Source of the DNA: Flavobacterium marginilacus
Lineage (GTDB): Bacteria > Bacteroidota > Bacteroidia > Flavobacteriales > Flavobacteriaceae
DNA length: 64,000 bases
Reading direction: 5' to 3'
Assembly: GCF_026870155.1 (NCBI RefSeq)
Contig: NZ_CP113975.1
Span: 2,604,001-2,668,000 of the forward strand
The translations under genes and the position numbers were made by a program. Every line of letters starts with the position of its first letter. Positions within the stretch are counted from its first letter, which is position 1. Below, in pieces: positions 43,902 through 62,801 of this stretch. The notes below the pieces were generated by a model. It saw only the letters and a list, made by a program, of their open reading frames with translations. It was not told the DNA's origin and did not search any database.

Positions 43902-44103
43902 GAATCGAATCACGGCATTCGCTTTTAAAAGTTTCTGACACGAATTACACTAATCTGCACGAATTAAGATTGCTGTTTAATTACACAAAATATTCGAAAC
44001 TGTAAAAGTTGTAAAATTTGATTTCAATTTTGATAAGAATTAGTGTTAATTGGTGAAATTCGTGTTTATCTTTTTTTAAATGCGAATGCCGTGGAATCGA
44101 ATT
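43902..44103. repeat. Imperfect long inverted repeat, intergenic
   Basis: CACGGCATTCGC (43912-43923) pairs with GCGAATGCCGTG near the other end (about 44080), and CACGAATTACACTAAT pairs with an ATTAGTGTTAATT..AATTCGTG block inside. It fills about half of the 437-base gap between the HD gene and the GntR gene, has no ORF and looks like a dispersed non-coding repeat. Confidence 0.55.
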
Positions 44104-45360: not shown

Positions 45361-45847
45361 TTACACTTGTAATCTTAATAATGCTTTAATCCTTGAAATA
45401 AGAGAAGATTTTAATACTCTTATATGTTTTTAACAATATTGAGCATAATCTAAAGCTTTTAAATTTTATTTATTTTAAAGCATGTTAAATCTGCTAAATA
45501 ATGGTTCAAAAATAATAAAATTCTAGTCTCAAAATATAACCTTGGTTATTTATAATCAATAAGGCTAGTCTTTAATTATTGCTGATTTTAATTGAATTGA
45601 ATGGCTGCTTATTTTTTTTACATAAGAATTTATCTGATCGTTTGATTTGGTAATTGTCGAATGCTTCTGCGGAATTTTTCAATCCTATAAATAAAAGCGT
45701 TCAGATCAAAGTTCAGAGGTGTACGAAATGTTGAATATTTTCTTTTTAGGCTAACTAATATTTATGCGTAATTTTTGCTAATCCACAGATTTACGACTTG
45801 ATCCCCGTTTTGTTACGTTACTAAGTCTCAATATCAGGGTTAAAAAA

Positions 45848-45874
45848 GGCTGTCCTTACTTTTTGGACAGCCTC
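45848..45874 (-). repeat. Solo IS1182-type left end
   Basis: The reverse complement of the left end of the IS at 20430 and 33818, including the preceding A-run: GGCTGTCCTTACTTTTTGG then ACAGCCTC. The rest of the element is missing, so this is a scar, or a terminator-like hairpin of the same sequence. Confidence 0.65.
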
Positions 45875-46387
45875 CTCTTTGTCTTTCTGTGGGCTGTCAG
45901 GGACTGCAATAGAATACTTGATCCTATTTTGATTTTTTTTGATAATATAAAGGAAACTATTTTATGAAGCAAAAAGTACATTAACGTTTCGGATTTAACT
46001 TAGAGTTGCGTGTCAAAGGGGCTAAGATCTCTCTATTAAGATAGAATATCTTAGTGAAAACCAAAGGCAATTTACAGAAATCTCCTGATTGTGGTTACGG
46101 GCTGTTAAGCCTGATTCTTATGAAATTTCTGCTCTTTTACTTGTGGATTGGTAAGTAAACTACATTTACTTTGAAATGTTTTGACAAAAATGTTTACTAT
46201 TTGAGGTTTTATTTTTTCAGAATCTTCAGTATCAATTTCATACAACACCCCATCATGTAATGGAATTAACAATCTCTTTTTTTTGATCTTTTAAAATGTT
46301 TCAATGATAGCTTTCTTGAAAATATAAGATGCATTTGATTGTATAATTCCATAAAATTATCTTAAAATAAATTATTTTGTCAGCGCA

Positions 46388-46397
46388 TTTGGCAATT
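46388..46397 (+). promoter_or_regulatory. TTTGGCAATT motif upstream of precursor 1
   Basis: The same ten bases recur at 49051, 49184 and 49318 before precursor 2 and at 55054. Position 61 bases before the ATG at 46458. Likely an operator or promoter part of the RiPP locus. Confidence 0.5.
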
Positions 46398-46457
46398 CTA
46401 TACCTAAAAATGACGCTAATTTCCCTAATGTAAAATCTAATTAAATACATACGAAAA

Positions 46458-46784
46458 ATGGAATTAACTAATGACCAAAAAATTTTAGATGTACTTGTTA
46501 AAAAAGCATGGAAAGATCCAACTTTTAAGAACGATTTAATAACTAGACCCGTCGCAACTATAGAAAATTTCTTAGGCCGTCCAATTCATCTGCCTGAAGG
46601 TAAAAGTATTACCTTTGTTGACCAAACAGACTCTTCAACCATTTTTATTAATATTCCTGCTGAAATCAATATGGAGGATGTGGAATTGAGTGAAGAACAG
46701 CTTGATACAGTTTCTGGCGGAGATGGAGATATAACCCCGCCAATAATTATTAAGCCTACTAATTCTTCTAGCACTATCTTTTAA
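46458..46784 (+). CDS. NHLP-leader RiPP precursor 1 (Cys-free core)
   Basis: 108 residues. The leader (1-88) has the nitrile-hydratase-alpha-like pattern: VLVKKAWKDPTFKNDLITRP, LPEGKSITFVDQTDS, IFINIPAE and a C-terminal ELSEEQLDTVSGG cleavage site. The core after GG (89-108) has the segments ITPPIIIKPT and NSSSTIF and is rich in Ser and Thr, with no Cys. This fits the NHLP/proteusin precursor family, whose export and leader removal are done by NHLM transporters. The lack of Cys excludes lanthionine formation within this core. Followed by a terminator hairpin (46816-46854). Confidence 0.88.
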   Translation: MELTNDQKILDVLVKKAWKDPTFKNDLITRPVATIENFLGRPIHLPEGKSITFVDQTDSSTIFINIPAEINMEDVELSEEQLDTVSGGDGDITPPIIIKPTNSSSTIF

Positions 46785-46815
46785 TAAAATTTAAGTTATA
46801 GGTAATTTAAAGATT

Positions 46816-46854
46816 AAAAAACGTACCTGTTCTCCATTTGAATATGTACGTTTT
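46816..46854 (+). terminator. Terminator after precursor 1
   Basis: AAAACGTAC pairs with GTACGTTTT with a ~20-base loop, about 30 bases after the precursor stop. Confidence 0.65.
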
Positions 46855-46862
46855 GATATTTA

Positions 46863-47022
46863 GAGCCTGTTTAAGTTTTATTTATTGGCTCTCTTATGAT
46901 GATTTTTTGTTACAACTTCGTTAAATTTTCATACAATAGCTCTGCTATTTTATAAAAATTTGCCTTGTTTCACTCAAAAATCCTCTAATAATAAATCTCA
47001 AAAATAAAATTTAAACAGGCTC
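46863..47022. mobile_element. 160 bp MITE-like element
   Basis: Near-palindromic ends GAGCCTGTTTAAGTTTTATT and its counterpart AATAAAATTTAAACAGGCTC, flanked by TTA on both sides (46860-46862 and 47023-47025). No ORF. The ends and the 3-base TNA-type duplication recall IS5/IS1031-type elements, so this is probably a non-autonomous derivative. Confidence 0.65.
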
Positions 47023-47041
47023 TTATTAAAACAACATATTC

Positions 47042-49015
47042 ATGAGAACGAGCATAAATACCGTTTTCTCTATATTTCTATTATTGAATGTAATATCGTT
47101 TTTTGGACAATCAAAAATAGAGAGAAAAGAAATCGTGACAAGTAAAAATAGTAAGGATGCAGATTCCATTCTCAATTTAGGTATGAAAAGTCAGGATGCT
47201 GGGAATTATGCGCAGTCACTATTGTATTTTGATAAAAGCCTAATCTTGTATAATTCTTTAGGTAAAAGCCGAAAAGTAGGTGATTGCTATAGTTATAAAG
47301 CAGTAACTTATTATTATCAGGGAGATTATTCAAATGCTCTAATCTTTTTTAAAAAAAGTACTGAAGAATATAAAAAAACAAAATATAGAAAAGGAATTTC
47401 TTCAATATTAAATAATATAGGAGGTGTTTATTATTATTTAGGAAATTATTTAAATGCTTTAAACTATTACAAACAAGCTATTGTTATTCAAGAAGAATTA
47501 AACGATACGAAAATGATTGCGGCAACTTCACAAAATATTGGGGGCATATATTCACAAGTTGAAGATTACACAAATGCATTGAAATACTATGATAGATCGT
47601 ATTTAATTTATAAAAAAAGTACAGATATAAAAGCTATTTCTCAAAATTTAAATGCTTCTGGGATAGTATATGTAAAATTAGGTAATTACACAAAAGCTCA
47701 AAAAAATCTTAACCAAGCGCTAGTTAATGCAGATAAAATAAATGATAAACAATTAAAAATCGAAGTATTATCTAGTTTAGGAGAATTGTTTTTTAGACAA
47801 TCTAATTTTGAGAGAGCATTATATTACTATAATCTGTCACTTGAATATTCTACTAAAATTAATAGTCTTCAATATATAAGTATTACAGAAGTTGCCCTTG
47901 GCAAAATATTGAATAAGTTAAATAAAAACAAACAAGCAATTACAAAATGTTTAAAAGGATATAATAATGCTGAAAAAATAGGCGCTACATCGGTTAAAAA
48001 AGATGCTTGTGATTGTCTTTATAATGCTTATAAGTTTACTAAAAACGACAAATTGGCTCTGTATTTTTATGAAAAATCAATTAATTTCAAGGACAGCTTA
48101 AAATCTGGAGAAACTTCTAATAAAATGATGAATATGGAGTTTCAACATCAACAATTACTAGATAGTATATCTCATGTAAGGAAAGAACATGTTATTGAAA
48201 CCAAACATAAAGAAGAAGTTCAAAAAAAGGAAAGACAGCAAAATATTATTATTATCTCTCTGTGTTTTATAGTTCTTATAGCTTTAGGATTATGGAATAG
48301 ATTAAACTACACACGAAAGTCTAAAATAGCTTTAAAAATAGAAAAGGATCTATCCGATGAACTATTACTAAATATATTACCTGAGGAAATAGCACAAGAA
48401 CTAAAACAAAAAGGTTTTGTTAATGCGCGAAATTTCACTTTAGTTTCGGTACTTTTTTCAGATTTTAAATGCTTTACTCAAACCGCTGAGAAAATGTCTC
48501 CTCAAAATTTAGTAGAAGAAATAAATACCTGTTTCAAAGCTTTTGATTTAATCACTGAAAAATACAATATAGAGAAAATTAAAACAATTGGAGATTCTTA
48601 TATGGCAGCTGGTGGTATCCCAAAACCAGATAAAGAATCTTTAAAAAATATTGTATTGGCAGGATTAGAAATGCAGGATTTTATGGCTGAAAGAAAAATT
48701 AACAATGACGCCAATAATAATCCTGCTTTTGAGATGCGATTAGGTATTCACGCAGGCCCAATAGTTGCGGGAATTGTAGGGGTTAAAAAATTCCAATATG
48801 ATGTTTGGGGAGATACTGTGAATACTGCAAGCCGAATAGAAAGCAACGGAATTGTAGGTAAAGTTAACATCAGTGAATCGCTTTATCATCTCATAAAAAA
48901 TGAAGAATGCTTTAGGTTTGAATATCGAGGAAGTATTCAAGCAAAGGGAAAGGGAGAACTAAAGATGTATTTCGTGGAAAGAAACCCTCATATTCTAAAT
49001 AATTTACAATATTAA
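47042..49015 (+). CDS. Membrane TPR-adenylate cyclase (class III)
   Basis: 657 residues. Signal peptide (MRTSINTVFSIFLLLNVISFFGQ), about six to seven TPR-like repeats (residues ~45-330, e.g. GNYLNALNYYKQAI), one membrane helix (~400-420, IIIISLCFIVLIALGLW) and a cytoplasmic class III cyclase domain (~440-650). Metal Asp residues lie in FSDF (D474) and IKTIGDSYMA (D518). Lys before TIGDSY and Asp in FQYDVWGDTVN are the pair that selects ATP, so cAMP is the likely product. The TPRs are exported. It lies between precursor 1 and precursor 2 and may supply the ligand of the cNMP-binding protein at 60673. Confidence 0.88.
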   Translation: MRTSINTVFSIFLLLNVISFFGQSKIERKEIVTSKNSKDADSILNLGMKSQDAGNYAQSLLYFDKSLILYNSLGKSRKVGDCYSYKAVTYYYQGDYSNALIFFKKSTEEYKKTKYRKGISSILNNIGGVYYYLGNYLNALNYYKQAIVIQEELNDTKMIAATSQNIGGIYSQVEDYTNALKYYDRSYLIYKKSTDIKAISQNLNASGIVYVKLGNYTKAQKNLNQALVNADKINDKQLKIEVLSSLGELFFRQSNFERALYYYNLSLEYSTKINSLQYISITEVALGKILNKLNKNKQAITKCLKGYNNAEKIGATSVKKDACDCLYNAYKFTKNDKLALYFYEKSINFKDSLKSGETSNKMMNMEFQHQQLLDSISHVRKEHVIETKHKEEVQKKERQQNIIIISLCFIVLIALGLWNRLNYTRKSKIALKIEKDLSDELLLNILPEEIAQELKQKGFVNARNFTLVSVLFSDFKCFTQTAEKMSPQNLVEEINTCFKAFDLITEKYNIEKIKTIGDSYMAAGGIPKPDKESLKNIVLAGLEMQDFMAERKINNDANNNPAFEMRLGIHAGPIVAGIVGVKKFQYDVWGDTVNTASRIESNGIVGKVNISESLYHLIKNEECFRFEYRGSIQAKGKGELKMYFVERNPHILNNLQY

Positions 49016-49046
49016 TAATCTTTACTTTAAAATTATATTTTACCAG

Positions 49047-49375
49047 TTTATTTGGCAATTTCATCACAAACCAACGGGTTAATTTTACATTAACAAAAAG
49101 AGCGGTTATGAAGCTAAAGCAAAAATAAAGTTCTTGATTTATGATTTTTAAAGAATACAGCCAGAATATTTTTTGTCAGTTTATTTGGCAATTTCATAAC
49201 AAACTGACTCACTAATTTTACATTAATAATGAGATCGGTTTAAGATGCAAACGTAAAATAAAACTTATGATCTATGATTTTTAAAGATTACAACTAGAAT
49301 GTTTTTTTGACGGTTTATTTGGCAATTTAGTCATTAATAGATCAACTAATTTTACATTAATTAAGAGATTGAATC
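49047..49375 (+). repeat. Three tandem ~133 bp upstream repeats
   Basis: TTTATTTGGCAATTT starts at 49047, 49180 and 49314, each followed by a TTAATTTTACATTAA-like block, GAG..GG/TT and an ATG-like trinucleotide. The last unit runs into the ATG of precursor 2 at 49376. The first two end in degenerate ATG..AAA..TAAA sequences without an ORF. They may be multiplied promoters/operators or scars of lost precursor genes. This 360-base stretch has no other gene. Confidence 0.7.
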
Positions 49376-49711
49376 ATGGAACAAAGAAAAAATAAAGAAG
49401 AAGTTTTACGATTGATAATTTCAAAAGCATGGGAAGATATTGAGTTTAGAAAAAAATTAATATCTGATCCAATAATAGCAATTGAAAATCTTACAGGAGC
49501 AAAAATCATATTGCCAGAAGGTAAAACACTAGTGGTGAATGATCAGACGGATAAATCAAAGGTGTACATGAATATTCCGAGTGAACCCGATATTGAGGAT
49601 ATTGAACTTACAGAAGATCAATTAGAAATTATCGCAGGAGGAGGACAAACGGTATGGACAGATTTGTTAAATAACTTGTTCCCAACAATTAGAGATTTTA
49701 TAAAAATTTAA
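49376..49711 (+). CDS. NHLP-leader RiPP precursor 2 (Cys-free core)
   Basis: 111 residues. The leader (1-89) is related to that of precursor 1: LIISKAWEDIEFRKKLISDP, LPEGKTLVVNDQTDKS, VYMNIPSEPDIEDIELTEDQ and LEIIAGG. The core after GG starts GQTVWTDLLNN and ends FPTIRDFIKI. It holds three Thr, no Ser and no Cys, and looks amphipathic. A dehydratase could at most make dehydrobutyrines here. It is preceded by the triple upstream repeat. Confidence 0.87.
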   Translation: MEQRKNKEEVLRLIISKAWEDIEFRKKLISDPIIAIENLTGAKIILPEGKTLVVNDQTDKSKVYMNIPSEPDIEDIELTEDQLEIIAGGGQTVWTDLLNNLFPTIRDFIKI

Positions 49712-49822
49712 ATAATTATTAAATTAAAATAGTGGTGTAGTTAAAAACAATTTAAGAATTATTTATTAAAAGCAGTGAAGGATTTAATAAGTAAACAAAT
49801 AACATTTAAAACATTTAAAATC

Positions 49823-50149
49823 ATGAACAATTCAGAAAAAATTAGAAAAAATCTAATTAACAATCAAGCATTTTTGTATTCAGTTGTAGCAAAAGCTAAT
49901 CAAGATTCATCATTTAAAGCTAGTTTATTAGCTGATTCAGAAAAAACACTTAAAGCATTTAATCCAAAATTTAATGTTCCAAGTGGATATGAACTTATCG
50001 TTGAGGATCAACCAGAATTAAATACTATTTATGTTGATCTTATCAAAACTAGTAATGTTGAACTTACTGAGCAAGAGTTAGAGCTAGTTGCTGGAGGAGC
50101 ATTAGAAGCAGCTGGTTCAAATGGTTGTATTTGTATTATTACTTGGTAA
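49823..50149 (+). CDS. NHLP-leader RiPP precursor 3 (Cys-containing core)
   Basis: 108 residues from ATG 49823; the earlier ATG at 49775 is upstream of a repeat shared with the next two genes and is less likely. The leader (1-92) has AFLYSVVAKANQDSSFKASL, NPKFNVPSGYELIVEDQPEL, YVDLIKTSNVELTEQELEL and VAGG. The core after GG is ALEAAGSNGCICIITW with Ser99, Cys102, Cys104 and Thr107. This core lacks the extra AAT of the next two copies. SNGC could give a small lanthionine ring or, without a cyclase, a dehydroalanine. Confidence 0.9.
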   Translation: MNNSEKIRKNLINNQAFLYSVVAKANQDSSFKASLLADSEKTLKAFNPKFNVPSGYELIVEDQPELNTIYVDLIKTSNVELTEQELELVAGGALEAAGSNGCICIITW

Positions 50150-50235
50150 TAAGAAATTCTAATTTCAATAAAATAAGTTGTTTTGATAAAAAACATATAA
50201 AAATTAATTAATAATCATTTAAAACATTTAAAATC

Positions 50236-50571
50236 ATGAACAATTCAGAAAAAATCAGAAAAAATCTAGTTAACAATCAAGCTTTTTTGTATTCAGTTGT
50301 AGCAAAAGCTAATCAAGATTCATCTTTTAAAGCTAGTTTATTAGCTGATTCAGAAAAAACACTTAAAGCATTTAATCCAAAATTTAATGTTCCAAGTGGA
50401 TATGAACTTATCGTTGAGGATCAACCAGAATTAAATACTATTTATGTTGATCTTATCAAAACTAGTAATGTTGAACTTACTGAGCAAGAGTTAGAGCTGG
50501 TTGCTGGAGGAGCAGCAACAGCATTAGAAGCAGCTGGTTCAAATGGTTGTATTTGTATTATTACTTGGTAA
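50236..50571 (+). CDS. NHLP-leader RiPP precursor 4
   Basis: 111 residues, nearly identical to precursor 3 in the leader (Val for Ile near residue 12). The core AATALEAAGSNGCICIITW is three residues longer. Even synonymous positions are mostly identical between copies 3, 4 and 5, pointing to recent duplication or gene conversion. Each unit of about 420 bp includes the upstream AATTAATAATCATTTAAAA block that acts as ribosome-binding and spacer sequence. Confidence 0.9.
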   Translation: MNNSEKIRKNLVNNQAFLYSVVAKANQDSSFKASLLADSEKTLKAFNPKFNVPSGYELIVEDQPELNTIYVDLIKTSNVELTEQELELVAGGAATALEAAGSNGCICIITW

Positions 50572-50656
50572 TAAAAAATTCTAATTTCAATAAAATAAGT
50601 TGTTTTGATAAAAAACACATAAAATTAATTAATAATCATTTAAAATATTTAAAATT

Positions 50657-50992
50657 ATGAGTAATTCAGAAAAAATAAGAAAAAATCTAGTTAACAATCA
50701 AGCATTTTTGTATTCAGTTGTAGCAAAAGCTAATCAAGATTCATCATTTAAAGCTAGTTTATTAGCTGATTCAGAAAAAACACTTAAAGCATTTAATCCA
50801 AAATTTAATGTTCCAAGTGGATATGAACTTATCGTTGAGGATCAACCAGAATTAAATACTATTTATGTTGATCTTATCAAAACTAGTAATGTTGAACTTA
50901 CTGAGCAAGAGTTAGAGCTGGTTGCTGGAGGAGCAGCAACAGCATTAGAAGCAGCTGGTTCAAATGGTTGTATTTGTATTATTACTTGGTAA
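50657..50992 (+). CDS. NHLP-leader RiPP precursor 5
   Basis: 111 residues, with the same protein as precursor 4 apart from Ser for Asn at position 2, and the same core. Followed by the terminator at 51023-51056, after which the dehydratase gene starts at 51153. Precursors 3 to 5 form one tandem array, so the peptide ending SNGCICIITW is expected to be the main product of the locus. Confidence 0.9.
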   Translation: MSNSEKIRKNLVNNQAFLYSVVAKANQDSSFKASLLADSEKTLKAFNPKFNVPSGYELIVEDQPELNTIYVDLIKTSNVELTEQELELVAGGAATALEAAGSNGCICIITW

Positions 50993-51022
50993 TAATAAAG
51001 ATATTAAGAAAACTATAATCAT

Positions 51023-51056
51023 AAAATGCAACCATTTTTTTCTTTGGTTGCATTTT
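51023..51056 (+). terminator. Terminator after the precursor array
   Basis: AAAATGCAACC pairs with GGTTGCATTTT, followed by ATTTTTC. It would allow high precursor expression with limited read-through to the dehydratase. Confidence 0.7.
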
Positions 51057-51152
51057 ATTTTTCTGCCCACTGATTAATTTTTAGATTTAATAACTATTAG
51101 TGGTGTAATCCTTTATAAATTATTAATGCAAAATCTTTAATCTACTAATACA

Positions 51153-52625
51153 ATGGATAATCTTACAATATTAGAATCTCTGCAGCAAACAGAAATTAAA
51201 AATAAAGTTACAAATTTTCTATGTTCTGTTAATGAGAATGTGTTGGTAGAACATCTTACATCCAGTAGGATCAAACAAACTAACTTTTCTTTTGATGAAT
51301 ATTTCAAAAAGCTGGAGGAAAGTAATTGGCAGGATATTAGAGAACAATTTCCTGTAATGGACGAAAATTTTATGTTTCACAAAAAAAATATAGAGAGTTT
51401 ATTTTATGATATAACAAATTCTTTTTATGAAGATAAAATTTTTCTTCAGGAAAAAAGTATCATTCAGGATCAATATTTAGAAGATATAAATATTGGTGAA
51501 GGAGATCAGCATAATGGAAAATCAACTGCAATATTAATATTATCAGAAAATCAAAAATTAATTTTCAAACCTACAGATGCTGGAATTTCAGAATCATATT
51601 TCATACTTTTGGATTGGGTTGGTCAGCATTTGGATATGGGTAATAGTATGTATCAAATTCACAATAAAAAAAATTACCATTGGCAAGAATTTGTCTCTGA
51701 ACAACATTGCAATACTTCAAAAGATTTACAAACCTACTACAAAAGAGCGGGATATTTGTTAGGTATTTTGTATGTAATTAATGCTACAGATTACCATGCA
51801 GAAAATCTTATTGCTCATGGAGACACTCCTGTACTGATAGATCACGAAACAGTTATTTTACCCAAAATATCTACTCATTTCAAAGAGTACTACAGACAAT
51901 TTAATGAGGGGAAAAAAGATACGGTTCTCAATACTTTTTTACTTCCTAATAATGGAGCTAAAGGAGATTTTCCGGTAGGAGCATGTGGTTTAGGATGTTC
52001 TAAAGAAACCCACGGTTACAGAGATAAAAAATTAGGGGTTAACCGTTTTACTAAATATTGGAGAATGGTTACCAAGTTAGCAGAAGAAGATTATATCAAA
52101 TGTAATGTACCTACGTTAAATGGTAAAAAGGTTTTTGTAGAAGAGTACTTGGAAGACTTCATAAGCGGATTTGAAGGCTGCTATCAATTATTATTAAAAA
52201 ACAAGGATTTTTTATTATCTAAAGATTCTCCTATACAACATTTTAATAATGTACCAATACGATATATTTGGCGATCTACTAGCGCATATCGAATAATTAT
52301 CAATTTTATGAAGGAGCCTAGAAACCTGATAGATAAAACACAGTATGAATATAAAGTAAGAAAATATTTATCTGTAGCTTATAACGATTTTCCACAAAAT
52401 TCTCCCTTGCTAAAAATTTTAGAACACGAAATAACTCAAGTATTAAGGGGCGACATTCCTTACTTTGAGGTAAATTCTTCATCCAGGGATTTGAAAACGG
52501 AATTTGGAACAATTAAAGATTTTTTCGAACTCAATGCGGTAGAAAATATAGAAAGAAAATTAAAAAAACTTTCATTAGAAGATCAGGAATTCCAAAAAGC
52601 AATAATTCTGGAAAGTCTTACATAA
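51153..52625 (+). CDS. LanM-type lanthipeptide dehydratase without cyclase domain
   Basis: 490 residues, covering only the DUF4135 dehydratase part of class II lanthipeptide synthetases (usual LanM is ~900-1100). Conserved residues are present: GDQHNGKS (D118, H120), LIFKP (K139), the ATP/activation loop NATDYHAENL (D213, H215, N218), LIDHET (D230) and R370/R374/T376/Y379 in IRYIWRSTSAYR, needed for phosphate elimination. The reading frame ends cleanly at 52625 with no LanC zinc motif afterwards. It would phosphorylate and eliminate Ser/Thr of the cores. No separate LanC gene is in the window. It follows the precursor array and precedes the S9 peptidase by 21 bases. Confidence 0.85.
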   Translation: MDNLTILESLQQTEIKNKVTNFLCSVNENVLVEHLTSSRIKQTNFSFDEYFKKLEESNWQDIREQFPVMDENFMFHKKNIESLFYDITNSFYEDKIFLQEKSIIQDQYLEDINIGEGDQHNGKSTAILILSENQKLIFKPTDAGISESYFILLDWVGQHLDMGNSMYQIHNKKNYHWQEFVSEQHCNTSKDLQTYYKRAGYLLGILYVINATDYHAENLIAHGDTPVLIDHETVILPKISTHFKEYYRQFNEGKKDTVLNTFLLPNNGAKGDFPVGACGLGCSKETHGYRDKKLGVNRFTKYWRMVTKLAEEDYIKCNVPTLNGKKVFVEEYLEDFISGFEGCYQLLLKNKDFLLSKDSPIQHFNNVPIRYIWRSTSAYRIIINFMKEPRNLIDKTQYEYKVRKYLSVAYNDFPQNSPLLKILEHEITQVLRGDIPYFEVNSSSRDLKTEFGTIKDFFELNAVENIERKLKKLSLEDQEFQKAIILESLT

Positions 52626-52646
52626 GGACCAATAATCAACTACTAC

Positions 52647-54911
52647 ATGAAACTAATCTTATTTATTTTACTTTTTAGTATGAGCATTTATGGTTTTGCA
52701 CAAGAGTTTACCGGTGACTGGAAAGGCACAATAGATAGGCGGGGTAACAAATTGGATTTAATTTTCCATATAGTAAATGACAGGGGCAAATTAGCTACTA
52801 CCTTAGACCTTCCTATACAAGAAAAAAAAGGGATTTTGTTTGACAATACCGTAATCAATGCCAAGGAAATCACTATTTCTTCCAGTAAAATGAGTATAAC
52901 TTATGTGGGTGTACTTGAAAATGACCAGTTGGTTGGATCTTACAAACAATCCGGAATGGAATCGCCTTTGACCTTATCTAAACTTGAAAACAAATTACCA
53001 GGAAATAAAGCTTTGCCTAGTTCTGAAGAAGAGTTACAAGCATTAGCTGCAAAAGACAATGGTAACTACAAATACAAAGTAGAAGATTATTTTGCTAAGC
53101 CAAAAGCATCTTCTTTTCAGCTTTCTCCTGATGGAAAATATATGTCTTATCAAGAAAAAGATGCCAATCTTAAAAATCACGTGTATGTAAAAAATATAAA
53201 AACACGAGAAGTAAAAAGAGTGATAGAAGAAAAAGGAGAATTGATCCGCAGATATGCTTGGGTAAACAACAATCATTTAATTTACATAATGGATAAAGGC
53301 GGAAACGAAAATTATCACTTGTTTTCTGTAAAAATTGATGGTAGTGCTAATAAAGAGCTGACTCCGTTTGATGGTGTAAAAGCAGATATTTTAGCCCTTC
53401 TTAAAGAAGATCCTGACCATATCATTATTTCAATGAACAAAAATAAACCTCAAATTTCTGATCCTTATCAATTAAATATCGTAACTGGAGAATTTCAGCA
53501 ACTCTATAAAAATGAAAATGTTGAAACCCCAATTGTAGATTATGATTTTGACAAAGACGGAAATTTAAGAGGTTATACAAAAATTAAAGATGGCGTTATT
53601 ACGCAATACTTTTACACAAAAGACGGAGGTGAAACCTTTAGCCTAATAAAGGAATATGGGATGGAAGATACCTTTGAGGTTTTGCAGTATAACTATTCTT
53701 CTAAAAATCCTGATGATGCTTATGTTTTAACAAATTTGGAGTCTGACAAAGCTGAAATTCAATTATATGATTTAAAATTAAATAAACCCATTAAATCAAT
53801 TTTCTCAAATGATGATTATGACGTCAGTGATATAAGTTTATCCAGAAAAAGAGGCTATGAAATAGATTGCTTTATTTACGAAGGTGATAAAAAAGAGATT
53901 GTTCCTCAAAGTAAATTCTTTAAAAATTTAGATCAAAATATAAGAAAACAATTTACGGGTTACCAATATAGAATCATTGGTGTAACGGACGATGAATCAA
54001 TGTATTTAGTTGTTGTTACAAGCGATAAAGTGGTCGGGAAATATTATACGTATGATCCCGAAAAAAACGAATTCAGCTTTCTGTATGATTTAATGCCTCA
54101 ATTGAAAGAGGAAGATATGGCAGAGATGCGCCCAATCATCTTTAAAAGCAGAGACGGAAAAACGATACATGGCTATATTACATTACCAAAAGCAACATCA
54201 GAAGTTAAAAAATTCCCTTTAATTGTAAATCCACACGGTGGTCCGCAAGGTGTTAGAGATCATTGGAGTTTTAATCCGGAAACTCAATTGTTTGCTAGCA
54301 GGGGCTATGCTACTTTACAGGTCAATTTCAGAATTTCTGGCGGGTATGGAAAAGAATTCTTTAAGTCAGGTTTTAAACAAATTGGAAGAAAACTGATGGA
54401 CGATGTGGAAGATGGTTTGCAATATGTAATTAATGAAGGTCTTGTCGATAAAACTAAAGTTGCTATTTATGGAGCAAGTCATGGTGGTTATGCTGTTTTG
54501 AGAGGGATGGAAAAAACCCCGGATTTATATGTTTGTGGTGTCGATTACTGTGGAGTCTCCAATATTTTTACTTTTATGAGTTCTATACCGGCTTATTGGA
54601 AACCTTACATAAAAATTATTAAAGGCTATTGGTATGATGTTGATGATCCAGAAGAGAAAATAATTGCCCAAGAAGTTTCTCCTGTTTTTCATATTGATAA
54701 AATTAAAAAGCCATTATTTGTGATACAGGGAGGAAACGATCCCAGAGTAAACATAAACGAGTCAGACCAAATAGTTGAAGCACTACGTAAAAAAGGATTT
54801 GTTGTTCCTTATATGGTAAAATATGATGAAGGACACGGATTTCACAAAGAAAAAAATCAAATAGAATTGTACCAAACAATGCTGGGTTTTTTAATCGAAA
54901 ATTTAAAATAA
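52647..54911 (+). CDS. Secreted prolyl oligopeptidase-family (S9) peptidase
   Basis: 754 residues. Signal peptide (MKLILFILLFSMSIYGFAQ), a ~110-residue beta domain (FTGDWKGTIDRRGNKLDL..), a beta-propeller-like region and the C-terminal alpha/beta hydrolase with GASHGG (S611), GGNDPR (D698) and DEGHGFH (H730). It is exported to the periplasm or cell surface. It starts 21 bases after the dehydratase gene, so it is in the same operon. It could trim exported peptides or protect the producer, but S9 enzymes are also general peptidases. Confidence 0.85.
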   Translation: MKLILFILLFSMSIYGFAQEFTGDWKGTIDRRGNKLDLIFHIVNDRGKLATTLDLPIQEKKGILFDNTVINAKEITISSSKMSITYVGVLENDQLVGSYKQSGMESPLTLSKLENKLPGNKALPSSEEELQALAAKDNGNYKYKVEDYFAKPKASSFQLSPDGKYMSYQEKDANLKNHVYVKNIKTREVKRVIEEKGELIRRYAWVNNNHLIYIMDKGGNENYHLFSVKIDGSANKELTPFDGVKADILALLKEDPDHIIISMNKNKPQISDPYQLNIVTGEFQQLYKNENVETPIVDYDFDKDGNLRGYTKIKDGVITQYFYTKDGGETFSLIKEYGMEDTFEVLQYNYSSKNPDDAYVLTNLESDKAEIQLYDLKLNKPIKSIFSNDDYDVSDISLSRKRGYEIDCFIYEGDKKEIVPQSKFFKNLDQNIRKQFTGYQYRIIGVTDDESMYLVVVTSDKVVGKYYTYDPEKNEFSFLYDLMPQLKEEDMAEMRPIIFKSRDGKTIHGYITLPKATSEVKKFPLIVNPHGGPQGVRDHWSFNPETQLFASRGYATLQVNFRISGGYGKEFFKSGFKQIGRKLMDDVEDGLQYVINEGLVDKTKVAIYGASHGGYAVLRGMEKTPDLYVCGVDYCGVSNIFTFMSSIPAYWKPYIKIIKGYWYDVDDPEEKIIAQEVSPVFHIDKIKKPLFVIQGGNDPRVNINESDQIVEALRKKGFVVPYMVKYDEGHGFHKEKNQIELYQTMLGFLIENLK

Positions 54912-54961
54912 TTAAACATTGCCAAAAAAATATTAGAAAGATAGTATCTCTTGTGACTTTA

Positions 54962-55010
54962 TAATAATAAGATTTCCTTTTCATGATTAAAAAAGGAAAT
55001 CTTATTATTA
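54962..55010. terminator. Strong terminator after the peptidase gene
   Basis: ATAATAAGATTTCCTTTT pairs with AAAAGGAAATCTTATTAT around a short loop, about 50 bases after the stop. Confidence 0.75.
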
Positions 55011-55053
55011 CATACATTGTATCTGAATAAATATATAAAATTCCTATTTACTT

Positions 55054-55063
55054 TTTGGCAATT
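55054..55063 (+). promoter_or_regulatory. TTTGGCAATT motif
   Basis: Fifth copy of the motif found upstream of precursors 1 and 2, here ~480 bases before the small lipoprotein gene, in a 618-base gap without other genes. Confidence 0.4.
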
Positions 55064-55150
55064 TTCTATTGTCATCGTGTTCCTTTATCATCTTTATTAT
55101 TATTTTGGCGCTGCTTTATTATAAGATGAGGTAGAAAAAAACTTCTAAAT

Positions 55151-55212
<62 letters not shown>

Positions 55213-55529
55213 TAAAAGAGAATGTAATATTACTAATGAAATGATTCCGTTTTATTGGTGATTTAGCAATTCAAAGCGAAACTCTTATCGCAAGATGATT
55301 CTGTTTTTAACTGAAATCGTCAGATTATTTTCAAAAAGACAAACCATTAAAAGTAAGAATTTTAACATTTTTTACACTTTTAGTCTAAAATCAAATCCTA
55401 AAAACGATATAGATTTGTCATGTAATATTACAAGTACAAGGAATTCCTGAAAAGCATTTTTTTAATAATCCAACGACTATTATAAAGCTGTTGCTCAAAC
55501 AAATATTTTCTAACAAAACCAAAAACGTC

Positions 55530-55679
55530 ATGAAACATTTTTATTATATTATCGCGATTATATCATTACTAGCCACTTTAAACTCTTGTACTGCAGACGA
55601 AATAGAAACTGACAAACCTAAAGTTCAAGCTGAAGTTGACCCAAATAATTCTGGCAGCATAATCCCACCAAAAAAATAA
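55530..55679 (+). CDS. Small lipoprotein-like peptide
   Basis: 49 residues from ATG 55530. The signal sequence MKHFYYIIAIISLLATLNSC has a lipobox-like Cys at residue 20, followed by a short acidic part (TADEIETDKPKVQAEVDP) and NNSGSIIPPKK. Probably a membrane-anchored peptide or a precursor of a peptide signal; the following sensor kinase is also a lipoprotein, so they may work together. No known family. Confidence 0.6.
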   Translation: MKHFYYIIAIISLLATLNSCTADEIETDKPKVQAEVDPNNSGSIIPPKK

Positions 55680-55765
55680 CCTTTTTAATTTTTTTAGTAT
55701 TATTTTTTTTGCATATTAAAAAGTCTGAAAAAATGTACTTTTACACTTATTTTAATTAAAAACGA

Positions 55766-57820
55766 TTGAAACAATTTACAACAATATTTATTTTTAGTAT
55801 TTTTTTTATTGGATGCGAGCGTAAAAATCAAAATTCTTACACTTCAAATGCTAATAATTTAGATTCGTTGATTTCAACTTCTACATATAAAAACATAACT
55901 AAAGAAGAAAGGTTAGAAAAGGCGTTATTAGCTTCTGAAATTATTCAAAATAATGACACTTTAGTGATATCATCTGACTATTATTTTGAATTGGCAGATT
56001 CATTTTTTCAACTTGGCGAGACTGAGAAATGTATACACTTACTGCAAAAGCTGTATCGAAAATCAATTTTATTAAATGATAACGAAGGTATTCAGAATGC
56101 AAGTTACAGTATTGCAATTGTTTATAATAAAGAAACAAAATATGATTCGGCTTATTATTACTTTACAAAATCAGAGAAAATCCATTTAAAAAAAAAGAAT
56201 GATAATTTATTGGGTAATTTAAAGATATGGAAAGCAGAAATATTATCTTTTAAAAATGACTATGTAGGAGCTGAAAAATTAGCGATTGAAGCATTAAAAC
56301 TGGGTATTGAAAAAGATAACAACCTGCTGATTTACAATTGTTATCTCACTTTAGGAAGTACACTTGTGGGGCTAGATAATTATGAAAAAGCTGTAGATTA
56401 TTATAATAAAGCTATTAGAATTTGTGAAAAATTAAAAACAAATTCTAATTATTTATCTTACAAATGCCAGCCCTACAATCATATTGCTAATATATATGTA
56501 AAAACTCAAAAATATAAAAAAGCTATTGCATTTGCAGAACAAGGGTTAGCTATAGCAGATTTCAAAAAAATAGATCCTCCTATTTATTGTTATCTTACTA
56601 ATAAACTGGCTTATTCTAAATTTAAACTGGGTAACAAATCGTCATTAAAACAATTTGAAGAAAATTTAAAAATGGGTAAAAGTATTAGTAACATTCCCGT
56701 TCAAATTACTTCCAAAACTTATTTAGGTGAATATCATTTAAATCAAAAAAACAATTTAAGAGCCAACTACTATTTAAAGGATGCGCAATTACAAGCACAT
56801 AAAAATAATCTTTTTGAAGACGAACTCAGAATTCTTAAATTATTATCTTCAGCAAATCCTCAAAAAAAATTCTATTATACGAATAAATACATACATCTTA
56901 ATGATAGTCTTCAAGATGTAGAACGTACTTCTCGTAATAAATATGCCCGTATAGAGTTTGAAACCGACCAAATAATCCAAGAAAAAAAAATAGTTGAGAA
57001 TAAAAAAAATGAAATCTCTAAACAATTTATTCTATATGCTGTCATAAGTAGCTTAGCTTTATTATTATTATCAATTATTTTATATCACAAAAACAAGAAT
57101 ATCAAACTTGAAAAATTGTTTCGCAAACAAGAACAAGCTCTAAACGATTCGCAAATTTATAATTTAATGCTTTCAAATCAGCAAAAGATGGAAGAAGGCA
57201 GGCTTATTGAAAAACAACGAATTTCTAGAGATCTCCATGATGGGATAATTGGGAAATTGTCAGCAATACGTATGAACTTATACGAAATAAAACACAGTCA
57301 ATCGCCGGAATCGATAAAAAAGCATTTAGAACATATTGCTTGTATGAAAGATATTGAGGAAGAAATTAGGAATCTAACACACGAACTAAACACTACAGTT
57401 TTTTCAGGTTCTGATGATTTTGAAGCCATTATTAAAGCGTTATTTAGTGAGTTAAATATTAATCCATTAGCTAAAATAAGCATAGAAGTTGACCCGAGAA
57501 TAGTATGGTCAGTTATTGATAAAAATGTAAAAATGAATCTTTACAGAATTTTTCAAGAAGCATTACAGAACATTAATAAATATGCAGATGCTAATTTAAT
57601 AACGATTGCAATTGCTAAAAATGAAACAAGTATAAGTATTCAAATTGCAGATAATGGTAAAGGTTTTGATGTAACGCATACAAAAAAAGGAATTGGATTA
57701 AAAAATATGAATCATCGCACAATGGAGCTTAAGGGACAATTCTCTATAGAATCGAAACAAAATATAGGAACAAAAATAAATTTGTCAATTCCAATAGAAT
57801 TTAATAGCTTTGAGTTTTAA
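55766..57820 (+). CDS. TPR lipoprotein sensor histidine kinase
   Basis: 684 residues from TTG 55766 (MKQFTTIFIFSIFFIGC, lipobox Cys at 17); no better ATG was seen. TPR-like repeats occupy ~40-410 on the outside, a membrane helix lies at ~423-445 (FILYAVISSLALLLLSIILY), then comes a HisKA_3 domain with the phospho-His in RISRDLHDG (H491) and a HATPase domain (QEALQNINKYADAN, IADNGKGFD, GIGLKNMNHR). This is the NarL-type kinase partner of the response regulator that starts 7 bases downstream. The TPRs suggest it senses a peptide or protein outside the inner membrane. Confidence 0.88.
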   Translation: MKQFTTIFIFSIFFIGCERKNQNSYTSNANNLDSLISTSTYKNITKEERLEKALLASEIIQNNDTLVISSDYYFELADSFFQLGETEKCIHLLQKLYRKSILLNDNEGIQNASYSIAIVYNKETKYDSAYYYFTKSEKIHLKKKNDNLLGNLKIWKAEILSFKNDYVGAEKLAIEALKLGIEKDNNLLIYNCYLTLGSTLVGLDNYEKAVDYYNKAIRICEKLKTNSNYLSYKCQPYNHIANIYVKTQKYKKAIAFAEQGLAIADFKKIDPPIYCYLTNKLAYSKFKLGNKSSLKQFEENLKMGKSISNIPVQITSKTYLGEYHLNQKNNLRANYYLKDAQLQAHKNNLFEDELRILKLLSSANPQKKFYYTNKYIHLNDSLQDVERTSRNKYARIEFETDQIIQEKKIVENKKNEISKQFILYAVISSLALLLLSIILYHKNKNIKLEKLFRKQEQALNDSQIYNLMLSNQQKMEEGRLIEKQRISRDLHDGIIGKLSAIRMNLYEIKHSQSPESIKKHLEHIACMKDIEEEIRNLTHELNTTVFSGSDDFEAIIKALFSELNINPLAKISIEVDPRIVWSVIDKNVKMNLYRIFQEALQNINKYADANLITIAIAKNETSISIQIADNGKGFDVTHTKKGIGLKNMNHRTMELKGQFSIESKQNIGTKINLSIPIEFNSFEF

Positions 57821-57826
57821 ATACTA

Positions 57827-58489
57827 ATGACAAGAAAAATACTAATAGTTGAAGACCATCCTTCAATGATTACTGGATATCAAACTATTCTGTCTCACAA
57901 TAACTTAGGACATCAGTTAGAGTTCTATTCTGCAAACAATTGTAAAGCTGCTTACGATTTTATTTCAAATGAAATTCAATCAATTCCTTTTGATTTGGTA
58001 ATGCTAGATTATAGTTTACCATCTTTTCCCGAAAAGGACATTTTTGATGGTGGTGATTTAGCACTTTTGGTTCATGAGTTTATTCCTACTGCAAAAACAT
58101 TAATTATAACTTCGCATTTTGAAAGTGTTATTTTGTACAATATTTATCAAAAAACACATGTCAACGGAATTATGGTCAAAACTGATTTCGACGATGAAGA
58201 ATTGTTGCTGGCTTATGAAAAAGTCATGACTGGTGAAAACTATTTTAGTAAAACTGCCAAAAAAGCGAAAACGGAACGTTTGTTAGCCGAAGGTCATTTT
58301 GATACTATTGATCGCCAAATTATAACACTTATTTCCAATGGATGTCAAATAAAAACCATTGCAAGTACTATAAAAGTTTCGGAAGATACTGTTAAAAAAC
58401 GCAAAAGTAAGATAAAGGATATTTTAGGTATTGATAAAGGCAATGACGAAGATATTTTGCGTGAGTGTAGATTATTACGAATGATATAG
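57827..58489 (+). CDS. LuxR/NarL-type response regulator
   Basis: 220 residues. Receiver domain (1-~130) with acidic pocket EDHPS and phospho-acceptor D61 in MLDYSLP, the conserved Thr/Ser in IITSHF and Lys in IMVKTDF. C-terminal LuxR HTH (IDRQIITLISNGCQIKTIASTIKVSEDTVKKRKSKIKDIL). It starts 7 bases after the kinase. Its DNA targets could be the motifs in the RiPP locus (TTTGGCAATT or TTTTACACTT), which is inference. Confidence 0.92.
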   Translation: MTRKILIVEDHPSMITGYQTILSHNNLGHQLEFYSANNCKAAYDFISNEIQSIPFDLVMLDYSLPSFPEKDIFDGGDLALLVHEFIPTAKTLIITSHFESVILYNIYQKTHVNGIMVKTDFDDEELLLAYEKVMTGENYFSKTAKKAKTERLLAEGHFDTIDRQIITLISNGCQIKTIASTIKVSEDTVKKRKSKIKDILGIDKGNDEDILRECRLLRMI

Positions 58490-59808
58490 AAAAAGTTAAA
58501 TGTTTTTTTTTGTTATATAATTACGTCATTCTACAAGGATAAAATTTATTATAAACACTTTTATGCTGTCTACTTAAAAGTACGTAAATGTTTAGCTAGC
58601 TGCTAAATTTATTGATTACAGAACTTGATACAGACAAACCTTTTCTATTTGAAAAAACTTTATTTCACAACAAATCATACGGAGATTAATCCTTTTAGCT
58701 ACAAAAAAAGGTTGCAATGTTTAAGAAGAAGCAATAAAAATCGGGATGCATAATCTTAATCTCTCCTTCTTTTATCTGGATAGAAAACTCTTTTTTTCAA
58801 CAGACTTATGCTAAATTAATTGCAAATGACTATAGGTTTAGATATTTTTATCTTTGGTTTCAGATAAATTTTCATTGTTGATATAGCTTCTCAAGATTAT
58901 TATGCAAATCCTTTAGCGATGATCATTTTTTTTTTGAAATTATTTTCTTATATATTTGAAATTTGGTATTTCTCTTTTAGATGTTTTTCGTCATAAAAGA
59001 TGCTATAAGATTACTTTTTTGATTTGCTTCACAATTTATATTTTGGGTATATTCATATCTAATATTTGTATTAGTCCCCTCTTTTACTATTAAAAAAAAT
59101 CGTTGCCTAATGCTAATTTACATTGGTCTATTTATTCTTATATAATTTTTGTGGTGCCGATATAGTCTTGGTATATGTTTTTTATTAAATAAATTATGAT
59201 TTTTTGTAACCATTTAGTTTGTTAAAGATTTGTTTTTACTGATTTTAAGATTAATAAATATGAATTATTTATATTTAAATTTACGGATGTAAAGCTGAAT
59301 TTTTTTTTTACTCTTTGTAAAAAAACTAAAAAGAGCCAGAATGATATCATTGTGACTTTGCAGTGTTTTTTTATGACTAAATATGTACTTTTCTCTTCTT
59401 TATAAAAACGACCTAAATAACTTTAAACATCACTACAGATTGAAGTAATACGAGGTTTTTTTCTTGTAAGTTGACCGATTTCATAGATGTTCACTCCCAT
59501 ACATCGAGCTGAATAGTTAGTAATTTTTAACTTTTTTTACACTTAAAGTGTAAAAAAACAAAAAAATCTTACAGTAGTTTTGACATATCAAATTGCTTTA
59601 GAATTATTTATAACTAAAATTTTAGAGTTTAGAAAAGCTGATAAAACAGAATGATAATTTAAGTAATAAAAGCGTATAAGTCGTTTTAAGAATCTGTTTT
59701 TGAGAGTCTTGAAAATAAAAATCAAATGACTTTAAATCTGCTTAAAAAGATATTAGTACTCGATTTTTGAAAATTAGTAATCAATAGAATTAATTACCAT
59801 TACAAATC
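58490..59808. other. 1.3 kb AT-rich gap
   Basis: No ORF with a credible start or conserved look was seen on either strand. Near the right end is a palindrome TTTTTACACTTAAAGTGTAA (59534-59553), matching TTTTACACTT sites at 55368-55380 and 55739-55748. Otherwise nothing recognised; it could hold a regulatory RNA or decayed genes. Confidence 0.5.
59532..59557. promoter_or_regulatory. TTTTACACTT palindrome
   Basis: ACACTT and AAGTGT face each other with flanking T and A runs, 250 bases before the AraC-type gene. Single half-sites TTTTACACTT occur before the small lipoprotein (55368) and the kinase (55739). Possible operator of the two-component system, or a terminator. Confidence 0.4.
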
Positions 59809-60462
59809 ATGAATACAACAGCAAAGAAAACTGCAATAGATTGGTCTTCACCAGATATTTTAAATCATTTATTCTCACATATAAAGAGTCCATTAGATTC
59901 TATTATTACAGCTAGTACAGCTGGCACACCTGGGAACGAGATTAAAAATGAGATTATTTTTTCTAGCAGTAATGAAATTAATGATCTTATAGAGGAAATA
60001 TTAAATGAAATGAAATCTAAATCAGTAAGCTTAACAATACGAAGTCGGCCTGATATTTTTGAGATTTATGAATCAAATAAGAATGTTCAGCATTTATGCT
60101 CAAATAAGATCACTCCTGAAAAAGTTACAAAAAACGACCAAAATTGGTTAATAAACTTAGAGAAAGAAATTTATAATTCCATTTCTAAGGATGATCTTGA
60201 TTTGTATTATTTATCGTGTAAAATGGCTGTAAGTGAAAGACAGCTTCATAGAAAAATTGCAAATTTAGTTTACTTAACTCCTAATAAATACATACGCATA
60301 CTAAGGCTGCATAAAGCAAAGCAACTAATAGATAACTATATTCAAGATTCCATTTCTCAAGTTTCTTATTCTGTTGGATATAATGATTCTCATTATTTTT
60401 CAAAATTGTTCAGTAATCAATATGATATATCCCCCAAAGCATTAATAAACTCACTAGCCTAA
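59809..60462 (+). CDS. AraC-type regulator with kinase-dimerisation-like N-terminus
   Basis: 217 residues. C-terminal AraC HTH pair (~120-217: DLDLYYLSCKMAVSERQLHRKIANLVYLTPNKYIRILRLHKAK and ISQVSYSVGYNDSHYFSKLFSNQYDISPKALI). The N-terminal ~90 residues are not a typical sensor: LNHLFSHIKSPLDSII and EINDLIEEILNEM look like the two helices of a histidine kinase DHp region, without a catalytic ATPase domain. It may be a cut-down hybrid sensor. It lies upstream of the export genes and is probably their regulator. Confidence 0.82.
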   Translation: MNTTAKKTAIDWSSPDILNHLFSHIKSPLDSIITASTAGTPGNEIKNEIIFSSSNEINDLIEEILNEMKSKSVSLTIRSRPDIFEIYESNKNVQHLCSNKITPEKVTKNDQNWLINLEKEIYNSISKDDLDLYYLSCKMAVSERQLHRKIANLVYLTPNKYIRILRLHKAKQLIDNYIQDSISQVSYSVGYNDSHYFSKLFSNQYDISPKALINSLA

Positions 60463-60672
60463 AAGAGTCTGATAAAAAAGTATTAATTAAATGCAGAATT
60501 TCTTTAAATCCACTTTAAAAGATTTTGAATTAAACGAAAATAATTTAGGCTGTATTAATGTAACGTTGTTGAGCAGTGTACAATTATTACTGATTATCAA
60601 AGGCTGTAAGATTCTTTAATGAATTTTTAAATAAAGCATAATTAAATAACCATAACCTTAAAAATATATATT

Positions 60673-61212
60673 ATGAAACGAGTGCTTTTTTTCTTAGGTC
60701 AATTAGATGACAGAGATGTGGAATGGATGATCCAGAATGGACAAAAAATAGAATTAAAAACTGGCGAGAAACTGATCCAGAAAGGAAATTATGTTGATAG
60801 TTTATTCATTTTACTATCAGGTCAATTGTCAATTTTTTCAGATGAGACTGGTGGTGAAGAAATTGCGCTGCTGGGAGCTGGAGAAGTTGTAGGTGAAATG
60901 TCTTTTTTAGAATCTAGGCCTCCTTCGGTTTCTGTCATTTCAAAAAATGCATCCGTTGTCTATAAAATATCTCGTAATGCAATAGACTCAAGGCTTTCTT
61001 CAAATCCAGATTTTAAAGCTAATTTTTATTACTCATTGGCATTATTTCTTTCTAATAGATTAAGAAAAACAACAGATCGTTTAGGATATGGGGTTCCTGA
61101 AGAAGAGGATTTAATTGATACAAAAGTATTAGATGTGCTTTCTCAAGCTGGTGCTCGTTTTAGTCAAATATTAAATAAATTTTCCGAGGTTAAATTAAGC
61201 GTTAATTATTAA
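60673..61212 (+). CDS. Bacteriocin-transport-associated cyclic-nucleotide-binding protein
   Basis: 179 residues. It has the full pattern of the small cNMP-binding proteins found beside NHLM export genes (TIGR03896 type): MKRVLFFLGQLDDRDVEWMI, GEKLIQKGNYVDSLFILLSGQLSIF, GEEIALLGAGEVVGEMSFLESRPPSVSV with the phosphate-binding Glu-x-Ser..Arg region, FYYSLALFLSNRLRKTTDRLGYG. No DNA-binding domain. It would respond to cAMP or cGMP. The TolC-like gene starts 10 bases downstream. The membrane cyclase at 47042 is a candidate source of its ligand. Confidence 0.9.
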   Translation: MKRVLFFLGQLDDRDVEWMIQNGQKIELKTGEKLIQKGNYVDSLFILLSGQLSIFSDETGGEEIALLGAGEVVGEMSFLESRPPSVSVISKNASVVYKISRNAIDSRLSSNPDFKANFYYSLALFLSNRLRKTTDRLGYGVPEEEDLIDTKVLDVLSQAGARFSQILNKFSEVKLSVNY

Positions 61213-61221
61213 GGTTCAAAT

Positions 61222-62787: not shown

Positions 62788-62801
62788 AAACATATAAAAT
62801 T

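Follow-up and report, generated by a model that had tools for sequence, protein, structure and literature searches.

A strain-specific NHLP (proteusin-like) peptide island in Flavobacterium marginilacus with a LanM-type dehydratase that has no LanC domain

The locus described here is a strain-specific island of Flavobacterium marginilacus that encodes NHLP (proteusin-like) peptides. The window, by which we mean the whole stretch of 64,000 nucleotides that was analysed, contains five NHLP precursor genes, a nucleotide cyclase gene between the first two of them and, after the last, a gene for a LanM-type enzyme. This enzyme keeps its catalytic residues and gives no LanC match, and its short relatives form one clade. 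Its sequence supports an intact-looking dehydratase without a cyclase.

Boundaries of the island

The F. marginilacus genome consists of two contigs and is 100% complete. A conspecific genome, G919, matches it at about 99% to the left of position 45666 and to the right of 70443. Between the two, the pair of G919 stretches compared gave no match, and a search of the G919 genome returned neither an NHLP nor an enzyme match. Since the similarity ends at 45665 and restarts at 70444, the island measures about 24.8 kb (45666-70443 in window numbering). It extends from just before the first precursor gene to just after a gene for a DUF7005 protein; 45666..64000 lies in the window and the right end is past it. 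In 2-kb steps, the G+C content is 0.27-0.32 within the island and 0.30-0.36 outside. The span singled out in an earlier note on this DNA (46458..52625) is a quarter of the system, which runs on past the window; that note left out the adenylate cyclase gene inside its own span, the exporters, the cNMP-binding protein and the island boundaries.

Five precursor peptides

The five NHLP precursors proposed in the earlier note were borne out by the positions of the open reading frames and by matches to TIGR03793. All are encoded on the + strand. Precursor A (46458..46784, 108 aa; core DGDITPPIIIKPTNSSSTIF) contains no Cys in its core and scores 47.8 bits, under the TIGR03793 cut-off of 50.9. Precursor B (49376..49711, 111 aa; core GQTVWTDLLNNLFPTIRDFIKI), the first NHLP after the nucleotide cyclase gene, likewise has a Cys-free core and scores 52.9 bits, above the cut-off. 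Precursor C1 (49823..50149, 108 aa from ATG; core ALEAAGSNGCICIITW) lies in a frame that is open from a GTG at 49775, and the ATG at 49823 is the likely start. Precursor C2 (50236..50571, 111 aa) has the core AATALEAAGSNGCICIITW, which is the same in C3 (50657..50992, 111 aa). The C1-C3 cores end ALEAAGSNGCICIITW and contain two Cys each. As had been claimed, two of the five cores (A and B) are thus free of Cys, which is confined to C1-C3 with their SNGCICIITW end. C1-C3 are near-identical tandem copies, a point absent from the earlier note.

One of the five precursors passes the TIGR03793 cut-off; the other four are under it (47.8, 35.3, 35.3 and 35.2 bits), all with E values of 4.7e-8 or better. 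A whole-genome search with this model at E up to 1 returned these five NHLPs and no others; at this loose threshold, sub-cut-off matches also appeared in 5 of 14 control genomes. The leader type of a proteusin or PoyF-type system is present (one of five above the cut-off), and the variable cores after Gly-Gly resemble those of the NHLP family (Haft, Basu and Mitchell 2010).

A dehydratase without LanC

The enzyme (51153..52625, + strand, 490 aa) matches PF13575 (DUF4135) over residues 84-440 with 257 bits. The LanM model TIGR03897 is matched over positions 67-519 of 932 only (317 against a cut-off of 304), and the match stops at enzyme residue 489 of 490. PF05147 gives no match in the protein, in agreement with the earlier view that the enzyme stops where LanC would begin; the C-terminal LanC domain with zinc ligands of a full LanM is absent. 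The residues D118, H120, K139, D213, H215, N218, D230, R370 and T376, reported as kept in the earlier note, are indeed invariant in a 28-row alignment, and all nine align with catalytic residues of CylM. Passages of PMC4550811 assign CylM D347, H349, N352, D364 and K274 to phosphorylation (H349A and K274A retain slight activity) and D252, H254, R506 and T512 to elimination, and they describe efficient dehydration by CylM 1-625, which is without the cyclase. Of 137 homologues shorter than 700 aa, 132 have all nine residues; five, all incomplete frames, have only some of them (P0096, P0100, two fragments of a single L025 gene and a fragment of a LanM in L047). This set of 137 includes near-duplicates, repeated entries of the same gene with different ids, and L060, a LanM truncated where its contig ends. 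The enzyme therefore has a DUF4135 dehydratase domain with the phosphorylation and elimination residues of a LanM, in the stand-alone form of a proteusin or PoyF-type system. Conservation of residues is no proof of elimination, and two further points count against this assignment: residues 212-239, the catalytic loop, have pLDDT values below 50 in the predicted enzyme model, and the LanM-model match starts only at position 67.

A cyclase could be encoded elsewhere, as the earlier note had considered. A search for a free-standing LanC beyond position 64000, which it had proposed, gave no PF05147 match in the whole complete genome, window and remainder alike. Twelve of 17 genomes with a short enzyme have no LanC above the cut-off (among the twelve, G1104 shows two matches that narrowly miss it); the other five carry LanC genes outside the NHLP locus. 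The stretches retrieved around 31 short enzymes gave no LanC either. That the search works is seen from G179, whose genome encodes a full-length LanM as well. With no LanC above the cut-off in 12 of the 17 genomes, supply from elsewhere is not the general answer.

The earlier note had also proposed a DUF4135 tree as a check. A quick DUF4135 tree with 62 rows (unrooted, from a short search, with long branches among the full-length rows flagged by the program) places all 30 short enzymes on one side of one branch, which has an SH-aLRT value of 100. The labels short and full-length require one change, and none of 500 shuffles gave a count as low. This branch adjoins LanMs that include the NHLP-associated L039, L049 and L063; in L063, from a MAG, PF05147 matches only over its first 47 of 350 positions, the start of LanC. 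The 111 homologues listed are 295-769 aa long, most near 490, and the relatives from the scan of genome contigs are the best 80 of 131. The enzyme was detected in 12 of 398 sampled genomes of the genus (nine with open frames of 494-648 aa, three with 916-1014 aa) and in 9 of 395 sampled genomes of the order. The set of 31 loci used below omits L025 and counts L164, which is absent from the tree; near copies were retained (L011/L012/L024 and L019/L020). Duplicates are L004, inferred to be the place of L020; L003 and L005-L009, which are the window itself; and L162 and L165, which repeat L028 and L024.

A nucleotide cyclase within the precursor array

Between precursors A and B lies a gene (47042..49015, + strand) for a 657-aa protein with TPR repeats and a class III nucleotide cyclase domain (PF00211, 182.7 bits), whose closest solved relative is adenylate cyclase type 8. 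Class III adenylate cyclases are marked by two metal-binding Asp, an adenine-type Lys/Asp pair, and an Asn/Arg pair. Aligned with adenylate cyclase type 8, the window protein shows the motifs LFSDFK, EKIKTIGDSYMA and QYDVWGDTVNTASR and has these residues, so that adenylate cyclase activity is predicted. Among 29 such cyclases, LF[ST]DFK and EKIKTIGD occur in all 29 and the strict QYDVWGDTVN.ASR pattern in 23.

In 28 of 31 loci, an NHLP gene is followed by the TPR class III cyclase gene, a second NHLP, more NHLPs and the enzyme, with at most one other gene between the cyclase and the next NHLP. The three exceptions are L010 and L164, whose contigs end early, and L022, a Saprospiraceae locus. 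A cNMP-binding gene is present in 19 of the 31 loci, and a GAF-PAS cyclase in eight others, within the stretch seen. In the window, the cNMP-binding protein (60673..61212, + strand, 179 aa) matches PF00027 with 62.1 bits and resembles about half of TIGR03896 (115.5, under the cut-off of 161.05). The recurrence of this neighbour, an adenylate cyclase gene between the first and second precursor (28/31 loci), suggests that cyclic nucleotides control these peptides. Passages of PMC8939145 name adenylate cyclases in passing for some ATP-grasp RiPP (graspetide) loci; in the open-access literature we found neither a nucleotide cyclase described within an array of NHLP genes nor cyclic-nucleotide control reported for NHLP loci.

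Exporter and other neighbouring genes

Next to the cNMP-binding gene, the + strand encodes an outer membrane efflux protein of the TolC type (61222..62787; PF02321, 94.6 bits) and an NHLM HlyD adaptor (62802..64064, past the window end at 64000; TIGR03794, 308 against a cut-off of 156). Beyond the window are NHLM ABC1 with a C39 peptidase domain (64074-66272; TIGR03796, 1035, cut-off 853), NHLM ABC2 (66283-69180; TIGR03797, 847, cut-off 709) and the DUF7005 protein (69183-70337; PF22541, 398 bits), in which H240, E241 and H244 of an HExxH motif are invariant in 8 rows. All three components of an NHLM export system are thus found above cut-off at or just past the window end.

The enzyme gene is followed after 22 bases by a gene for an S9 (prolyl oligopeptidase family) peptidase (52647..54911, + strand; PF00326, 146 bits) with an N-terminus that by eye is signal-like. 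Among the loci read, this gene occurs only here and in L010, and its product is a candidate trimming protease. Regulatory genes on the same strand encode a TPR sensor histidine kinase (55766..57820; PF07730, PF02518), a response regulator (57827..58489; PF00072, 30.6 against a cut-off of 30.2) and an AraC-type regulator (59809..60462; PF12833, 58.2 bits); the histidine kinase and response regulator are also present in L013, L016, L018, L155 and L157. Of the 17 island genes listed (ORFs of at least 90 aa), 15 were scanned and gave no radical SAM Pfam domain of the kind used in the polytheonamide system; the other two are near-copies of a scanned precursor.

Likely substrates and products

All 30 readable cores of the precursor nearest the enzyme contain Ser/Thr, and 21 contain Cys. 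These come from 33 rows (23 with Cys, 32 with Ser/Thr), from which L164, with an unreadable core, and L049 and L063, in which part of LanC is present, were excluded. Cores at the A position have Cys in 0 of 29 and Thr/Ser in 27 of 29; at the B position the counts are 9 and 26 of 29. By eye, neither the A cores (with TPP or DPP, depending on the core) nor the B cores have a Ser/Thr position that is constant. One genome, G320, has an NHLP, cyclase, NHLPs array with exporter, DUF7005 and GAF-PAS cyclase and is without a DUF4135 gene; in the sampled genomes of the family, DUF4135 was found in 3 of 397, G320 not among them, and NHLP in 4 of 397. In its congener G1060 (L160), an array of this kind includes the enzyme. 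A and B belong to the constant part of the island; with A- and B-like precursors present in G320, the sole enzyme-free locus to speak for this, they are probably not substrates of the dehydratase. The G320 genome has one LanC gene elsewhere. Modification of all five NHLPs would fit their common leader type, their single array and the frequent Thr/Ser in A and B, but G320 and the lack of a constant Ser/Thr position make it unlikely.

The position of Ser/Thr relative to Cys bears on the products. In 11 of 18 enzyme-adjacent Cys cores (from a non-redundant set of 27 of 50 rows), Ser/Thr stands at -3 of Cys, against 3.4 expected and with none of 5000 shuffles as high; in the other precursors it does so in 3 of 23, against 3.0 expected from shuffled cores. 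The C-type core of the window shows this spacing too (SNGC). Because several of the cores are homologous and the 18 are not independent, we take the enrichment as a hint, not proof, that a lanthionine spacing has been kept in enzyme-adjacent cores. C1-C3 could then be dehydrated and their Cys added to Dha/Dhb without LanC, be it spontaneously, aided by the enzyme or through an unrecognised protein, to give (methyl)lanthionine rings. This outcome is doubtful: ten offsets were tried, of which +4 is weakly enriched as well (7 against 3.3; 25/1000 shuffles) and -1, -2, -4, -5, -6, 1, 2 and 3 are not; 9 of 30 enzyme-adjacent precursors are Cys-free; L028 has Ser in place of the Cys of its sister core in L160, with the Thr retained; and LanC is missing above cut-off from most short-enzyme genomes (12/17). 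The proposal in the earlier note of peptides with Dha/Dhb rather than lanthipeptides thus stands as far as it builds on a dehydratase without LanC, while its argument from Cys is weakened by the G320 array and the -3 spacing.

Two further readings concern the enzyme itself. It might act as a kinase only, with phospho-Ser/Thr as the end product, as does EmbM of the phospeptin pathway, likewise a LanM dehydration domain without cyclase, which according to passages of PMC9259500 and PMC9505594 gives a diphosphorylated peptide. In those passages, however, the elimination residues of EmbM are mutated and its precursor has a Nif11-type leader, whereas here D118, H120, R370 and T376 are kept and the leaders are NHLP, and we think such a role improbable. 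That the enzyme is the decaying remnant of a full-length LanM would agree with the missing C-terminal half and with L063, where only the start of LanC is left, but an open frame and a C-terminus and catalytic residues conserved across a branch spanning many genera make this the least credible of all.

We favour, with moderate confidence, a PoyF-like stand-alone dehydratase that makes Dha/Dhb on C1-C3 and does not act on A and B, followed by C39 cleavage and export, with production or export tied to cAMP. Computation shows the gene arrangement, the conserved residues, the lack of a LanC match, the clade and the island; dehydration, substrate choice, order of processing and the cAMP link are what we infer from them. 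The 490-aa enzyme would bind ATP and phosphorylate Ser/Thr of the adjoining C1-C3 precursors, where Ser and Thr in SNGCICIITW are possible sites; elimination of the phosphate would then leave Dha/Dhb. In the absence of a dedicated cyclase, LanC would play no part in any thioether formed with a Cys close by. Next, the NHLM transporter would cut the peptides after Gly-Gly with its C39 domain and export them, and they might be trimmed by the S9 and DUF7005 peptidases. The adenylate cyclase encoded between A and B, together with the cNMP-binding protein whose gene adjoins the exporter, would probably tie their production or export to cAMP.

Relation to known systems

LanM enzymes without a cyclase are already known (PoyF, EmbM), and dehydrated Cys-free NHLPs were foreseen by Haft et al. 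PoyF, from the proteusin pathway to polytheonamide, is described in passages of PMC9505594 as a LanM dehydratase domain that dehydrates an NHLP precursor. We liken the present pair of cyclase-less dehydratase and NHLP precursor to it by this description, not by sequence. The polytheonamide pathway differs in its radical SAM enzymes, methyltransferase and oxygenase, none of which is among the island genes scanned, and the island differs in its several precursors, NHLM exporter and adenylate cyclase. With EmbM the island shares a LanM dehydration domain as the sole maturase (passages of PMC9259500), and with class II LanMs such as CylM and LicM2 the dehydratase fold and active-site residues; unlike the latter, its enzyme has no LanC domain and matches the LanM model from position 67. 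The exporter corresponds to the NHLM export systems of TIGR03794, TIGR03796 and TIGR03797.

Passages of Haft et al. 2010 (PMC2887384) state that Cys-free NHLPs beside LanM presumably remain dehydrated; the paper makes no mention of Bacteroidetes, Flavobacter, Chryseobacterium or Kordia, and the word 'cyclase' appears in it twice, in the reference list only. A genome note on Flavobacterium sp. SLB02 reports, in the passage concerned, a bacteriocin cluster with LanM and NHLP (PMC7317107), which is very likely our locus L013. PMC10734526 presents a proteusin cluster of Kordia, which may or may not coincide with a locus of our set. Neither of these two passages remarks on the missing LanC domain or on a nucleotide cyclase gene. 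In the open-access literature, we found no description of the cyclase-less clade as such.

Significance

A possible, still tentative scheme is that a constant core (adenylate cyclase, cNMP-binding protein or second GAF-PAS cyclase, A and B) senses and exports, while tailoring of the variable precursors falls to an exchangeable slot, filled by a cyclase-less LanM, a glycosyltransferase, a JmjC oxygenase or nothing. A and B would then be signalling or immunity-type peptides and the variable peptides would carry stable Dha/Dhb, in what may be a cAMP-wired weapon or signal island. Peptides with stable Dha/Dhb are useful electrophiles. The family is compact and lends itself to separating dehydration from cyclization in LanM enzymes, as each enzyme in the loci read has precursors of its own next to it, and L160 and L028 offer sister cores with and without Cys. 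Its chief interest lies in the constant cyclase module and in these sister cores.

Genes that accompany the dehydratase and the NHLP precursors

At several related loci, the array that holds the cyclase-less LanM dehydratase also holds a glycosyltransferase-like or JmjC-like gene (L019, L020, L021, L112 and L159; L017, L022, L023 and L161), as if the array had a slot for tailoring enzymes. The Pfam check of these genes covered L017 and L004, which is the same place as L020. The gene at L112 and L159 has no Pfam match and was named by its appearance. An additional type of NHLP precursor, with a conserved SLYDSL end following the Gly-Gly motif, is encoded at L026, L028, L029, L112, L156, L158 and L159, where its gene lies between the AraC gene and the cNMP-binding gene.

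A similar island with NHLP, nucleotide cyclase and exporter genes is present in a relative's genome (L111, G320:C1:655001-675000), where the LanM-like enzyme is absent and the precursors are adjoined by a 1123-amino acid protein without a Pfam match. The NHLP-associated LanMs of L049 and L063 are 830 and 828 amino acids long, and the match of the latter to the LanC model PF05147 is limited to the first 47 of its 350 positions. This is possibly an intermediate stage toward loss of the LanC domain.

The island and its chromosomal site

The island's last gene, beyond the window (69183-70337), encodes a DUF7005 protein; an HExxH motif is invariant in the eight aligned sequences, and the protein is probably a metallopeptidase. 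A repeat of about 184 bases in the window (43909-44094) has some 40 further copies or pieces, 79-99% identical, in the conspecific genome G919. At the chromosomal place that corresponds to the island, G919 carries about 47 kb of DNA (G919:C5:134403-181510) that differs in the stretches compared. The site may be a hot spot for islands of accessory genes.
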